Shown here piece after piece: positions 2,248 to 7,175 of a DNA stretch of 7,175 bases. The translations under genes and the position numbers were made by a program. Source of the stretch: Candidatus Rokuibacteriota bacterium (GTDB lineage Bacteria; Methylomirabilota; Methylomirabilia; Rokubacteriales; JACPHL01); NCBI GenBank assembly GCA_016188625.1, contig JACPHL010000060.1, positions 1-7,175 of the forward strand, read 5' to 3'. Under the pieces are notes generated by a model. It searched no databases. It saw only the letters and a list, made by a program, of their open reading frames with translations, and had not been told where the DNA came from. Each line of letters opens with the position of its first letter. Position 1 is the stretch's first letter.

Positions 2248-3327
2248 TCAGACGCCCCGGCCAGTCCCCCGATCGAAGACATAGAGTCGCTCGGGGTTTA
2301 CCCGGAGCCACACCGCCTCTCCCGGGGTGAAAGGGGTGTGGCCCTGGAGCTTGACCTTGACCGCCTGCGGGCCGATCCGGGCGGTCAGGATCCCGTACTT
2401 CCCGAAGGGCTCGTAGATATAGACCTCGGCCCGGAGCCCCCGATCGCCGTCCCGGGTGACACCGATGTCCGTCGGCCGGATCCCCAGGACCACCTCCTCG
2501 CTGGTCCGACCCGCGAGCCGACGCTCCACCTCGCGCCCGAGCGGCACGCTGAACCCCGGCCCCGCGGCGGCGAGCCGATCCCCCTCGCGGCGGAGCGCGG
2601 CGGCGAGCAGATTCATCGGCGGGTCGCCGAGGAGTCGCGCCACGGCCGTGGTCGCCGGGCGGGCATAGACCTCCTCGGGCGGGCCCTCCTGCTGGATCTC
2701 CCCGCCCAGGAGCACAACTAGCCGGTCGGCCACCGCCATCGCCTCGAGCCCGTCGGGGGTGGTCCAGAGCGCCGGGACCCCGCGGGCCCGGAGGAGGCGC
2801 TTCAGCTCCCCCCGCAGGCGGTGGCGGAGCTTGGCGTCCAGGTGGGCGATCGGCTCGTCCAGGCAGAAGACGGCGGGCTCCCGGGCCAGGGTCCGGCAGA
2901 GGGCGACCCGCTGCCGCTGGCCGCCCGAGAGCATGTGGGGGTAGCGGCCCAGGAGCCCGTCGATCTCCAGGAGCCGGGCGATCTCGACGATCCGCTCCCG
3001 AACGCCCCCGTTCCGGCCTCCGGCGGCGCCGAGGGCGAAGGCGCAGTTCTGGTACACGCTCAGATGCGGGTAGAGGGCGTAGGACTCGAACATCATCCCC
3101 ACGTTCCGCCGCTGGGGCGGCCAGCCCGTCACGTCGGCGCCCCCCAGGCGGATCGACCCCGCGGCCGGGCGGAGGAGCCCGGCCACGAGCCGGAGGGTGG
3201 TGGTCTTGCCCGCGCCCGACGGGCCGAGGATCGCGACCAGCTCGTCCCCCACCCTGAGGGTCACCCCGCGCAGGACCGGCGCCCGGCCGTAAGCGTGGGA
3301 GACTTCCGAGAGCTCGAGGACCGCCAT
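2248..3327 (-). CDS. CUT1/MalK-type ABC transporter ATPase with degenerate H-loop
   Basis: This 359-residue protein has the full MalK-type length: a nucleotide-binding domain followed by a complete TOBE/regulatory domain (about 276-350, from VVLGIRPTDIGV to NPERLYVFD). Visible motifs are Walker A GPSGAGKT (35-42), the Q-loop region MMFESYALYP with Glu81 in place of Gln, signature LSGGQ (133-137), Walker B CLDE (155-158) and D-loop AHLD (161-164). In the H-loop the usual THDQVEAM is replaced by TPDGLEAM, so the switch histidine is Pro191. The family needs that His for normal hydrolysis in most members, so I infer one composite ATP site is weak or regulatory and the other ATPase provides the active site. 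This resembles CUT1 importers that encode two different ATPases, as in the rhizobial glycerol system GlpS/GlpT. The stop is 19 bases from the binding-protein start. Confidence 0.94.
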   Translation of the reverse strand: MAVLELSEVSHAYGRAPVLRGVTLRVGDELVAILGPSGAGKTTTLRLVAGLLRPAAGSIRLGGADVTGWPPQRRNVGMMFESYALYPHLSVYQNCAFALGAAGGRNGGVRERIVEIARLLEIDGLLGRYPHMLSGGQRQRVALCRTLAREPAVFCLDEPIAHLDAKLRHRLRGELKRLLRARGVPALWTTPDGLEAMAVADRLVVLLGGEIQQEGPPEEVYARPATTAVARLLGDPPMNLLAAALRREGDRLAAAGPGFSVPLGREVERRLAGRTSEEVVLGIRPTDIGVTRDGDRGLRAEVYIYEPFGKYGILTARIGPQAVKVKLQGHTPFTPGEAVWLRVNPERLYVFDRGTGRGV

Positions 3328-3335
3328 GGCCTATG

Positions 3336-3339
3336 CTCC
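3336..3339 (-). promoter_or_regulatory. Ribosome binding site of the second ATPase
   Basis: GGAG on the minus strand lies 8 bases before the ATG at 3327. This independent site fits the fact that the upstream gene ends 176 bases earlier, so translational coupling is not available here. Confidence 0.5.
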
Positions 3340-3346
3340 GAGGGCT

Positions 3347-3372
3347 CCGGCCCCCCCCGCGGGAGGCGCCGG
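3347..3372 (-). promoter_or_regulatory. GC-rich hairpin upstream of the second ATPase
   Basis: The 26-base segment can fold with CCGG at both ends and a C-rich arm pairing with a run of eight G, giving about ten pairs with one mismatch and one G-U pair around a short loop. It ends about 20 bases before the start codon and just upstream of the ribosome binding site. There is no U-tract, so an intrinsic terminator is unlikely. It might stabilise the downstream mRNA or modulate read-through, or it may be a chance fold in GC-rich DNA. Confidence 0.35.
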
Positions 3373-3503
3373 CCCCTCGCTCCACACGCTCCGCGGCGCA
3401 CCCGTCTGTGGCTCGCCGGGCGGGGCCCCTCCTCCTTCGTTCCGAGCCCGCCTTCCGGCTTCCCCACCCGGCTCGCTCACGACGGGGACCCGCGCCGCTC
3501 CGC

Positions 3504-4436
3504 TTAAACGTTCCGCTCGGGGCCGACGCCTCCCTCGGGGCCCCCCTCGGCGTACTCGCGCGCGACCCCCACGGCCTCGGGCCGGATCCCGAAGAGGACC
3601 TCGCGGCCGGCGCCCGCGGCCTCGAGCCGGGCCAGGAGCGGTCGAGGGAGCGGCAGGTCGTGGGGACCGAGCCGGAGGGCCGGGGTCGCGCCGTCGGCGA
3701 GCGTGCCGGGGAGGAGGTTCATGGGCGGCTCCCCGATGAAGCCGGCGACGAAGACCGTGGCGGGCCGATGGTAGAGCGCCTCCGGGGAGCCCGCCTGCTG
3801 GAGCCGGGCCGCGTGCATGACGGCCACGCGGTCGGCCATGGCCATCGCCTCGACCTGGTCGTGGGTCACCAGGATCGTCGTCACGCCGGTGTCCTTCTGG
3901 AGCCGCTTGAGCTCGGCCCGGAGCTCGGCCTTGAGCTCCGCATCGAGATGGGAGAGCGGCTCGTCCAGGAGGAGGAGGTTGGGGTCGCGGACCAGGGCCC
4001 GGCCGATGGCGATCCGCTGCTGCTGCCCCCCCGAGAGGCCGTCCACCCGCTGGTCGAGGAGGTCGGCGACGTGGAGCATCTCGGCCACCTGGCCCACGCG
4101 CCGGGCGATCTCGGCCCGGGGGAGGCGGCGGACCCGGAGGGGGAAGGCGATGTTCTCCCCCGCCGTCATCCGGGGGTAGAGGGCGTAGTCCTCGAAGACC
4201 ATGGCGATGTTCCGGGCCCCCGGCTGGAGCCTTTTCACCGGGCGGTCGTCGAAGAAGATCTCGCCCCCGGAGGGGGGCTCCACCCCCGCGATCATCTTGA
4301 GGGTCGAGGTCTTCCCGCACCCCGAGGGGCCCAGCAGGGCCAGGAGCTCGCCGGAGCGGACCTGGAGGTCGAGGTCGCGGACCGCCTCCACGGCCCCGTA
4401 GTACTTGGTGAGCTGCTCCAGTCGGATCGTCGCCAT
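3504..4436 (-). CDS. CUT1/MalK-type ABC transporter ATPase, C-terminally shortened
   Basis: This cytoplasmic ATPase would power import through the downstream permease, pairing with the second ATPase. In its 310 residues I see Walker A GPSGCGKT (36-43), the Q-loop region MVFEDYALYP with Glu82 where Gln is usual, the signature LSGGQ (134-138), Walker B LLLLDE (154-159) and an intact H-loop VTHDQVEAM with His192. The conserved FIGEPPMNLLPG follows at about 233-244 and FGIRPEAVGV at 282-291, the start of the last TOBE strand set. The protein then ends within about 20 residues in a Gly/Glu/Pro-rich tail. MalK-type partners normally run to about 350-370 residues, and the neighbouring ATPase carries about 60 more after the equivalent point. 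I found no TOBE-like continuation in any forward frame of the following gap, so a simple frameshift does not explain it. The start Met is chosen because MATIRLEQL is the canonical N-terminus and it overlaps the upstream stop. Confidence 0.93.
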   Translation of the reverse strand: MATIRLEQLTKYYGAVEAVRDLDLQVRSGELLALLGPSGCGKTSTLKMIAGVEPPSGGEIFFDDRPVKRLQPGARNIAMVFEDYALYPRMTAGENIAFPLRVRRLPRAEIARRVGQVAEMLHVADLLDQRVDGLSGGQQQRIAIGRALVRDPNLLLLDEPLSHLDAELKAELRAELKRLQKDTGVTTILVTHDQVEAMAMADRVAVMHAARLQQAGSPEALYHRPATVFVAGFIGEPPMNLLPGTLADGATPALRLGPHDLPLPRPLLARLEAAGAGREVLFGIRPEAVGVAREYAEGGPEGGVGPERNV

Positions 4437-4438
4437 CA
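4434..4438 (-). other. TGATG stop-start overlap (translational coupling)
   Basis: On the minus strand the TGA stop of the cysteine hydrolase and the ATG of the first ATPase share one A. No good Shine-Dalgarno lies within the usual distance (a GGAGG occurs over 15 bases upstream, inside the hydrolase), so the ATPase is probably translated by reinitiation. This ties expression of the hydrolase to that of the transporter. Confidence 0.75.
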
Positions 4439-5017
4439 GCGGAGCGCCGCCTCGACCTCCGGGAGGGAGACGACGTAGCCGAAGACGTGGCCGAGGCAGA
4501 GGAGGGCCGCCTCGTGCCGCTCCGGGGCCGTGCCCGCCACGCACTCCCGCGGGACGACGCACCGGAAGTCCAGGTTCCGGGCGTGCTGGACCGTGGAGGT
4601 CACGCAGACGTCGGTGCAGACGCCGGCCACGATCAGGTTCTCGGCCCGAAGGCCGCGGAGGAGGGTCTCCAGGTCCGTCCCGAGGAAGGCGTCATAGCGC
4701 CGCTTGCCCATGATCCGGTAGTCGGTGGGCGCCACCTCGAGCCGTTCGGCCAGCTCCATCCCGGGCGTCCCCTCGAGGCAGTGCGGCGGCTCGAACTGAA
4801 GCTCGATCCCGAAGTCCGACTTGTCGGCCCGGTGCATCTCCTGGGTGAAGACGACGGGGATCCCGAGGGCGCGGGCCCGGGCGGTGAGCCGGTTGATCGC
4901 CGGGATGATCGCGCGCCCGCCGGGTGTCTCGATCGGCGCCCCCGGATCGAGGAAGTCCCGCTGCATGTCGATCACCAGGACCGCGGTCCGCTTCGGATCG
5001 AGAGGTGGCAGCGCCAT
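4436..5017 (-). CDS. Isochorismatase-family cysteine hydrolase
   Basis: This 193-residue protein matches the usual length of the cytoplasmic isochorismatase-fold amidohydrolases, which cleave C-N bonds of amides or ureido compounds through a Cys nucleophile. The triad is visible: Asp17 in VIDMQRDF, Lys105 in IMGKRRYDAF and Cys138 in GVCTDVCV, with the small residues before the Cys forming the usual oxyanion-hole turn. The MHRADKSDFG and HCLEGTPG segments (about 61-70 and 79-86) resemble those of general cysteine hydrolases related to N-carbamoylsarcosine amidase, biuret hydrolase and maleamate amidase; I cannot choose between these. The DxH metal-binding motif of nicotinamidases is absent. 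The start at 5017 is supported by GAGGAG a few bases upstream, overlapping the stop of the molybdoenzyme gene. Its stop overlaps the next ATG by one base. The position between a molybdo-hydroxylase and a transporter suggests it acts on an imported or oxidised nitrogen compound. Confidence 0.93.
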   Translation of the reverse strand: MALPPLDPKRTAVLVIDMQRDFLDPGAPIETPGGRAIIPAINRLTARARALGIPVVFTQEMHRADKSDFGIELQFEPPHCLEGTPGMELAERLEVAPTDYRIMGKRRYDAFLGTDLETLLRGLRAENLIVAGVCTDVCVTSTVQHARNLDFRCVVPRECVAGTAPERHEAALLCLGHVFGYVVSLPEVEAALR

Positions 5018-5026: not shown

Positions 5027-7175
5027 TCAGGCCGACCCGAGGGGCCGCGCCCCGGCCTCGCGGATCAGGGCCAGGATCCGATTCGGGCTGAGCGGGGTCC
5101 GCGTCACCTTCACCCCGAAGGGCGCCAGGGCGTCCTCCACCGCGTTGGCCACCGCCGCCGGCGGCCCGATCGCCCCCCCCTCCCCTAGCCCCTTCACCCC
5201 CAGCGGGTTCCGGGGCGAGGGGAATTCCAGATGCACCGTCCGGATCGCCGGCACCTCCATCGCCGTCGGTACGAGGTAGTCCATAAAACTCGCGGTCAGG
5301 AGCTGTCCCTGCTCGTCGTACATCATCTCCTCCAGCAGGGCGCCCCCCACCCCCTGCGCCACCCCCCCCCGCACCTGCCCCTCCACGATCAGGGGGTGAA
5401 TCACCCGCCCGCAGTCGTGCGCCACCCCGTAGCGGAGCACCCTCACCTGCCCCGTCTCCGCGTCCACCTCCACCACCGCCGCGTGCACCGCGCTCGCGTA
5501 CGTCACCGTCGGCACCCCCTGGTACACCGTCGCCGTGAACCCCACCCCCGCCCCCGCCTGGGCAAAGCTGGGGAGCGCGGATTGGATCACCCGCCCCAGG
5601 GGCACCGCCGTGCTCGGGACCCCCCGCACGAAGACCTGCCCTCCCTCAAGCTCCAGGTCCTCCGCCTTCGCCTCCAGCACCCCCGCCGCCACCGCCAGCA
5701 CCTGCGCCCGCACCTGCCCCGCCGCCGCCGCCACCGCGTTCCCCGCCACCACCGCGCCCCGGCTCGCAAAGGTGCCAATGCCGAAGGCGATCGCCCCCGT
5801 GTCCCCCCCCACGACGCTCACTGATTCCAGGAGGACCCCCAGGGCATCGGCGGCGATCTGCGCGAAGCTCGTCTCGTGCCCCTGCCCCTGCGAGCACGCC
5901 CCCGTCGCCACCCATACCCCCCCCGTCGCGTCCAGCCGCACCACCGCCCCCTCGTACGGCCCCAGCCCCGTCCCCTCCACGTACGCCGCCACCCCCACCC
6001 CCCGGTACACCCCCCGCGCCCGCAGCGCCCCCTGCTCCGCCCGGACCCCCGCGTAGTCCACCGCCGCCAGGGCCGCCTCCAGGGCCCCGGGAAAGTCCCC
6101 GGAGTCGTACACCAAGGGGTTCCCGTCCCGGTACAAGAGCCCGGTGTCGTACGGCAGCGCCTCCGGGCCGATCAGGTTCCGCCGCCTGAGCGCCGCCGGG
6201 TCCACCCCCACCGCCCGCGCCAGCCGCTCCAGCCCCCGCTCCATCGCGAACACCGCCTCCGGCCGCCCCGCGCCGCGGTAGGGGGCATGCGGGGCCTTGT
6301 TGGTCGCCACCGCGGCCACCTCCACGGCGAAGTTCCGCACCTTGTAGGGGCCGAGAAGATGGGCGACGGTGTTGTACGGGAGGACGATCCCCCAGGGGTT
6401 GAACGCCCCCTGGTCGAGGAGGATCCGGTCACGGACCGCGAGGAGCGTCCCGTCCCGGCGCGCCGCGAGCTCGAGGTCGTGGATCTGCTCGCGCGCGTGG
6501 GCGGCCGCCTGCATGTGCTCCCGCCGGTCCTCGATCCACTTCACCGGCCGCCCGAGGCGCACCGCCAGAAGGGGGATCAGCATGTCCTCCTGGTAGACGG
6601 CAGCCTTGGTCCCGAACCCGCCTCCCACGTCGGGGGTCACCACCCGCACCCGATGGGCGGGGATCCCCAGCACCTCGGCGAGCGCCCGCTGGAGGAGGTG
6701 GGGGATCTGGTGGGAGGTCCAGACCGTGACGGTCGTCTCCCGGCTGCCCGACTCGGCAACGATCCCCCGGGTCTCGATCGGCATCCCGACATACCGTTGG
6801 ATTCGGAACCGCTCCCGGACCACGACGTCCGCCCGGTGGAAGGCCCCCTCCACATCCCCGATCGCGTGGCTGAAGTGGACCGCCACGTTGTCCGGCCACT
6901 CCGGGTGCACCCGCGAGGCCCCCGGCGCGAGCGCCGCCTCCGGGTCCACCACCGCCGGGAGCGGCTCGTACTCGACCCGGATCCGCTCCAGGGCGTCCTC
7001 GGCCAGGGCCCGGCTCTCCGCCACCGCCACGGCCACCGCCTCCCCCACGTAGTGGACCCGGTCCCTGGCGAGGGGGTACTGGATCCCGCGCCGGACGGTG
7101 AACGTGATCCGGCTGACCAGGCCTGGGGGCGCTACCCCCGATTCCAGGAGCGGCTTCATCCGGTCCCCGAGGTCG
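5027..7175 (-). CDS. Xanthine dehydrogenase/CoxL-family molybdopterin-binding large subunit (5' partial)
   Basis: This is the catalytic large subunit of a molybdenum hydroxylase, which inserts water-derived oxygen into a C-H bond of an aldehyde or N-heterocycle. It normally works with a FAD subunit and a 2Fe-2S subunit; neither is visible here. The frame stays open to the window edge (Asp-Leu-Gly-Asp-Arg precedes the Met at 7159), so that Met is probably internal and about 70 N-terminal residues are missing; 710 residues follow it. Counting from that Met, I see the GGGFGTK molybdopterin motif at 179-185, PYRGAGR at 293-299, SQGQGHE at 423-429, the GTFASRG segment at about 462-468, and GLGEGG with the likely catalytic base Glu660. 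The PYRGAGR loop resembles the AYRGAGR loop of form II/CoxL-like enzymes, not the AYRCSFR loop of true CO dehydrogenase, so CO oxidation is unlikely. The stop lies 9 bases before the hydrolase start, implying co-transcription. Codon usage is patchy along the gene. Family assignment is firm; substrate is unknown. Confidence 0.95.
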   Translation of the reverse strand, partial: DLGDRMKPLLESGVAPPGLVSRITFTVRRGIQYPLARDRVHYVGEAVAVAVAESRALAEDALERIRVEYEPLPAVVDPEAALAPGASRVHPEWPDNVAVHFSHAIGDVEGAFHRADVVVRERFRIQRYVGMPIETRGIVAESGSRETTVTVWTSHQIPHLLQRALAEVLGIPAHRVRVVTPDVGGGFGTKAAVYQEDMLIPLLAVRLGRPVKWIEDRREHMQAAAHAREQIHDLELAARRDGTLLAVRDRILLDQGAFNPWGIVLPYNTVAHLLGPYKVRNFAVEVAAVATNKAPHAPYRGAGRPEAVFAMERGLERLARAVGVDPAALRRRNLIGPEALPYDTGLLYRDGNPLVYDSGDFPGALEAALAAVDYAGVRAEQGALRARGVYRGVGVAAYVEGTGLGPYEGAVVRLDATGGVWVATGACSQGQGHETSFAQIAADALGVLLESVSVVGGDTGAIAFGIGTFASRGAVVAGNAVAAAAGQVRAQVLAVAAGVLEAKAEDLELEGGQVFVRGVPSTAVPLGRVIQSALPSFAQAGAGVGFTATVYQGVPTVTYASAVHAAVVEVDAETGQVRVLRYGVAHDCGRVIHPLIVEGQVRGGVAQGVGGALLEEMMYDEQGQLLTASFMDYLVPTAMEVPAIRTVHLEFPSPRNPLGVKGLGEGGAIGPPAAVANAVEDALAPFGVKVTRTPLSPNRILALIREAGARPLGSA

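Follow-up and report, generated by a model that had tools for sequence, protein, structure and literature searches.

An asymmetric pair of MalK-like ATPases suggests a CUT1 importer in which one ATP site is catalytic and the other degenerate

INTRODUCTION

It has long been asked whether an ABC importer has to hydrolyze ATP once or twice in each transport cycle, and MalK, with its two identical sites, is ill suited to finding out. One-site ATP use has been documented for exporters and has been little studied in CUT1 importers. The locus described here encodes two different MalK-like ATPases (ATP1 and ATP2), one of which carries a proline where the H-loop histidine is expected. We asked whether this difference is a genuine property of a transporter family and, if so, whether such a pair could run an importer on a single hydrolyzing site.

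RESULTS

The window, that is, the whole stretch of DNA analyzed (7,175 bases), is an entire contig (C195) of a 2.6-Mb draft genome that comprises 344 contigs and is 84% complete. Its main genes are all encoded on the minus strand. Two different, adjacent MalK-type ATPases are encoded, as the first-pass annotation had stated: ATP1 (positions 3504 to 4436, 310 amino acids) and ATP2 (positions 2248 to 3327, 359 amino acids). The same operon continues with an extracellular solute-binding protein (SBP) of the SBP_bac_1 family (positions 828 to 2282, with a probable start at ∼2234) and a MalF/UgpA-like permease that is cut by the contig end (positions 2 to 802). A second permease was read in two orthologous loci, L009 and L070, and the window contig ends before the corresponding position; with it, the operon has the CUT1 composition of SBP_bac_1 plus two MalF/MalG-like permeases. 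On the other side, the stop codon of an isochorismatase-family hydrolase gene (positions 4436 to 5017) overlaps the start of ATP1 (TGATG). All three domains of ATP2 (PF00005, PF17912, and PF08402) score above their cutoffs, so that OB_MalK and TOBE_2 are complete and the protein qualifies as a CUT1 MalK/UgpC-type ATPase. UgpC (NF008653) is the best NCBIfam family for both ATPases, with 346 bits for ATP1 and 315 bits for ATP2, but both fall below its curated cutoff of 432 bits.

Reading the translations and aligning them to the solved MalK homologue 2it1 bore out the residue difference that the annotation had singled out. The H-loop of ATP1 reads VTHDQVEAM, with His192 (codon at 3861 to 3863, minus strand), and that of ATP2 reads TTPDGLEAM, with Pro191 (codon at 2755 to 2757, minus strand; both codon positions counted from the start of the ORF), which aligns with the His of THDQ in 2it1. 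The remaining ATP-site motifs, also described as intact, are so in both proteins: Walker A (GPSGCGKT in ATP1 and GPSGAGKT in ATP2), the signature (LSGGQQQR in ATP1 and LSGGQRQR in ATP2, where LSGGQ spans residues 133 to 137 at positions 2917 to 2931, minus strand), and Walker B (LLLLDEP and VFCLDEP, respectively). Both ATPases have Glu at the Q-loop position, namely, Glu82 in ATP1 (motif VFEDY; codon at 4191 to 4193, minus strand) and Glu81 in ATP2 (motif MFESY; codon at 3085 to 3087, minus strand). The predicted model of ATP2 (pLDDT 91.3, pTM 0.88) is built like other MalK proteins, Pro191 following immediately on the core strand formed by residues 186 to 190, and it matches E. coli MalK of the maltose transporter (3rlf_B; Z score of 38.8, root mean square deviation of 2.4, 351 residues). 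According to this model, ATP2 folds as MalK along its full length of 359 residues.

Orthologous pairs were collected with two queries. The first, ATP2 against genome contigs, led to a colinear operon in Poseidonocella (L009), whose products are 58% (ATP1), 48% (ATP2), 52% (SBP), and 56% (permease) identical to those of the window. As the second query we used the SBP, scanned taxon by taxon, and then read the flanks of the matches. The 95 genomes of the window's phylum contained one further strong match (G070). Two matches, Poseidonocella itself and the new genome G161, were found among 390 genomes of the Poseidonocella order, and G161 was again the single match among 385 genomes of the corresponding class. 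Ten genomes matched at an E value of 1e-80 among the 397 from the order of L020, a Hyphomicrobiaceae metagenome-assembled genome. In the class of L014, 369 sampled genomes were scanned without a positive control and gave no match at 1e-80, and a plasmid search returned no orthologues, its best SBP matches being ∼29% identical. In total, intact ATP1-ATP2 pairs are present at 12 loci including the window, the other 11 being one from the same phylum and ten from alphaproteobacteria. At a thirteenth locus (L117), ATP2 is frameshifted and still reads ATPDGLEAL. The frameshift lies just ahead of the H-loop (L117:7600-7860) and the SBP frame is also broken, so that this locus is either a pseudogene or a draft-sequence error. 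The order ATP1-ATP2-SBP-permease is kept in the window, in G070, in Rhodobacterales, and in the order of L020. It is not absolute, given that the SBP lies apart from the ATPases in L116 and that the ATPases are on the far side of the permease in G923 (L111/L119). Judging from the sequences, these importers form a small, sparsely distributed CUT1 family with a conserved asymmetric ATPase pair.

Across the 12 intact pairs, every ATP2 has Pro at the H-loop position, Glu in the Q-loop, LSGGQ, and the Walker B sequence DEP, and the count for Pro rises to 13 if the frameshifted L117 copy is included; the D-loop of ATP2 reads [SA]HLDA. Every ATP1 has the H-loop His, the Q-loop Glu, and DEP (12/12), and its signature is [LM]SGGA in all pairs except that of the window, which alone has LSGGQ (Gln138, the fifth signature residue; codon at 4023 to 4025, minus strand). 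This is not due to uniformly close sequences: ATP2 pairwise identities range from 42 to 97%, in a set that includes three near-copies (L113 to L115), and Pro191 is among 77 invariant columns of the 364-column alignment. In the MalK-like ATPases outside both two-ATPase families that we compared, the H-loop His is present in 24/24 and the Q-loop Gln in all 23 with a readable Q-loop; Glu at this position thus occurs in 24/24 ATP1/ATP2 family members and in none of the other MalK-like ATPases sampled. A Fisher test of Pro in ATP2 against His in the 24 others gave a P value of 8e-10, which serves as a guide only since the rows are related. In the related system L118 (SBP 34% identical over 468 amino acids), the stretch read contains one ATPase, and this has the Gln and the His.

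Judged by these sequences, the loss of the H-loop His in ATP2 is permanent, being kept in every relative found and in two phyla. Asymmetric transporters with one degenerate site are defined by paired NBDs of which one has consistently lost residues of its catalytic site, and the ATP1/ATP2 family conforms to this, with Pro in 12/12 ATP2 sequences, His in 12/12 ATP1 sequences, and [LM]SGGA in 11/12 of the latter. Scoring the Q- and H-loops of both paralogues upheld the H-loop asymmetry of the first-pass annotation and revealed a Q-loop Glu in both subunits, which it had not reported. The LSGGA signature of the ATP1 orthologues and the early end of ATP1 in the window had likewise been overlooked.

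The window copy of ATP1 is unusual in its C terminus. At 310 residues, it is ∼60 residues shorter at this end than its orthologues, the missing part being TOBE_2; OB_MalK is retained and PF08402 is absent, whereas orthologous ATP1 proteins have a full-length tail. The distance from the GIRPE motif to the end is 28 residues in the window and 84 to 101 in ten of the eleven orthologues; the motif search mismatched in the remaining one, L070, whose ATP1 nevertheless has 360 amino acids. A hidden frameshift restoring the domain was considered and dropped, since the 177-base gap before ATP2 (window positions 3328 to 3506) holds no convincing TOBE remnant in any frame. The shortening could be a deletion, a misassembly, or a real truncation. 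With its TOBE_2 domain absent, the window copy of ATP1 may be damaged or misassembled, and the short ATP1 together with the lone LSGGQ makes the window a somewhat atypical member of the family.

We inspected the neighboring genes for clues to the substrate. FmdA/AmdA amidases, aldehyde dehydrogenase, GMC oxidoreductase, isochorismatase-type hydrolases, and molybdopterin hydroxylases recur, but they vary between loci, for which reason an assignment from neighbors was abandoned and no substrate is named here. An FmdA/AmdA-family amidase lies beside the transporter in four loci (L009:12291-13235, L109:3517-4455, L112:3719-4654, and L116:9616-10572), accompanied in some loci by aldehyde dehydrogenase or GMC oxidoreductase genes, and this neighborhood is a possible clue to the substrate. 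Genes for molybdopterin hydroxylases of the xanthine dehydrogenase/CoxL-like type are found near the transporter in the window (molybdopterin subunit at positions 5027 to 7159, upstream and in the same direction), in L110 (1502-3919), and in L112 (359-2695).

To place the pair among other two-ATPase importers, we compared it with the rhizobial glycerol system, using a set of eleven GlpS/GlpT pairs (L014, L017, and nine plasmid regions, L080 to L088, most of them annotated with glpD, glpK, or DUF2160 neighbors). The first-pass annotation had named this system as a precedent for two ATPases, which holds, and the precedent turned out to be asymmetric itself in 11/11 pairs. The H-loop position of GlpS is occupied by Thr (ATTEP), its Walker A is noncanonical, and its LSGGQ is intact; GlpT has the H-loop His and a degenerate signature (e.g., LAADAKQ). 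By sequence, the losses are thus concentrated in one composite site, via different residues than in ATP1/ATP2.

In NBD trees, ATP1, ATP2, GlpS, and GlpT form four separate supported groups. The ATP1 and ATP2 trees share their main groupings (L009/L109 with L112/L119, and L113/L116 with L079 and L110) and place L070 weakly; since they are largely congruent, the pair appears to be inherited as a unit. Approximately unbiased (AU) tests rejected none of the groupings ATP2 plus GlpS (P = 0.44), ATP1 plus GlpT (P = 0.33), and ATP1 plus ATP2 (P = 0.40). The SBP and permeases of the ATP1/ATP2 family resemble those of the single-ATPase importers in the comparison more than they resemble GlpV, GlpP, and GlpQ. 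Given that these nearest relatives have single ATPases, the comparison favors, without being decisive, separate origins of the two asymmetries.

DISCUSSION

A composite ATP site consists of the Walker A and B motifs and the Q- and H-loops of one NBD and the signature of the other (PMC7756269). In an ATP1-ATP2 heterodimer, one composite site would then contain both the ATP2 proline and the ATP1 LSGGA, and the other site would have His and LSGGQ and be canonical apart from the Q-loop Glu. We consider it likely, at the level of sequence and comparison, that the locus encodes a CUT1 (type I) importer driven by a heterodimer in which one ATP site is catalytic and the other degenerate, much as the first-pass annotation had proposed. 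The predicted ATP1-ATP2 heterodimer would be the motor of one CUT1-type importer, with two MalF/MalG-like permeases above it. Site I, formed by Walker A/B and His192 of ATP1 and the LSGGQ of ATP2, would be the hydrolyzing site. Site II, formed by Walker A/B and Pro191 of ATP2 and the ATP1 signature (LSGGA in the family), would bind ATP, hydrolyze it poorly or not at all, and play a structural or regulatory role. In such a transporter, ATP is probably consumed at one site only, and the simplest stoichiometry would be one ATP per import cycle.

What the proline may do to site II can be judged from better-known transporters. In the symmetric maltose transporter, one H192R subunit causes severe impairment, which implies that a natural Pro site goes along with an adapted cycle. 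The attacking water in MalK is held in place by H192 and E159 (PMC8134467), so that a Pro instead of the His should cost site II one of its catalytic contacts and impair it. In MRP1, transport hardly changes when the H-loop His of the degenerate site is mutated but is lost almost entirely when that of the other site is (PMC7756269). Site II retains the Walker A Lys, the Walker B Asp, and the catalytic Glu, making it less degenerate than most degenerate sites, and it might hydrolyze slowly. In the window genome, where ATP1 has LSGGQ, the Pro alone sets site II apart.

Other readings of the same residues have to be weighed. That Pro191 is an isolated mutation or sequencing error, or that the two ATPases serve different importers, was raised by the first-pass annotation itself, and the contig does come from a draft genome of several hundred pieces. 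We regard either as extremely improbable: no orthologous ATP2 among those found has His at this position, the proline being kept in all 12 intact copies and in the frameshifted one, and the pair travels with one SBP and permease set, with conserved pairing and largely congruent trees. It is improbable, too, that the Pro is functionally compensated, for example by the Q-loop Glu or by another residue, so that both sites hydrolyze and the asymmetry exists in sequence only. The fixed Glu does indicate that the active-site chemistry of the family is already unusual, and both subunits retain the Walker B Glu, but ATP1, which has its His, carries the Q-loop Glu as well, so this residue is not specific to the Pro subunit.

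The remaining reading concerns the composition of the dimer: an ATP1 homodimer might do the work, with ATP2 as an accessory, part-time regulatory, or inactive partner. ATP1 alone has the Walker motifs, the His, and a usable signature, and among type I importers there are cases of shared or exchanged ATPases (PMC7658222). Such a homodimer, however, would have LSGGA at both sites, and the two genes are always found paired. Moreover, ATP2 keeps the canonical LSGGQ, the Walker motifs, and its C-terminal domains in 12/12 cases, as expected if it completes a catalytic site. An ATP1 homodimer is therefore rather unlikely, and we prefer the heterodimer.

The sites of ATP1/ATP2 and of GlpS/GlpT are genetically distinguishable, so that the role of each can be tested directly. 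The comparison suggests that degenerate sites also occur outside exporters and importers with fused NBDs. It seems to us somewhat better than an even bet that CUT1 importers with one-site hydrolysis are a natural class, possibly evolved more than once (ATP1/ATP2 and GlpS/GlpT), in which, as in asymmetric exporters, the losses have accumulated in a single composite site, with the Q-loop Glu throughout the ATP1/ATP2 family. In the part of the literature covered, which did not extend to the original glycerol-transporter paper, we found no description of degenerate sites in CUT1 importers or of the GlpS/GlpT asymmetry.

As regards known systems, the family shares with MalFGK2 and UgpC-type CUT1 importers the predicted full-length MalK fold of ATP2, the MalF/MalG-like permeases, SBP_bac_1, and UgpC as the best-matching family of both ATPases. 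MalK and UgpC, however, work as homodimers, and each of their two sites has His and Gln, whereas ATP1/ATP2 are two paralogues with Pro in one and Glu Q-loops in both. The glycerol importer GlpSTPQUV of Rhizobium leguminosarum VF39, with a homologue in Cupriavidus metallidurans (PMC7912956), is likewise of the CUT1 type, with two different adjacent MalK-like ATPases of which one lacks the H-loop His. It differs in the Thr and altered Walker A of GlpS, the altered signature of GlpT, and its retained Q-loop Gln; ATP2 with Pro and LSGGQ and ATP1 with LSGGQ or LSGGA belong to neither Glp group. Its SBP and permeases are only ∼28 to 31% related to those of the ATP1/ATP2 family, and it has a DUF2160 gene and glpD/glpK neighbors, while no glp genes were found near the ATP1/ATP2 family members examined. 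RbsA and NupO are also importers with one degenerate ATP site (PMC11466899), but they belong to another importer class, with two NBDs fused in one chain and the degeneracy in Walker A, the signature, and, in NupO, Walker B. Finally, TM287/288, BmrCD, ABCC1, and Pdr5 combine one canonical and one degenerate composite site, and in some asymmetric exporters the altered motifs include the H-loop (PMC7756269). Unlike the importer predicted here, these are exporters, and the Walker B Glu, retained in ATP2, is usually missing from their degenerate site as well.
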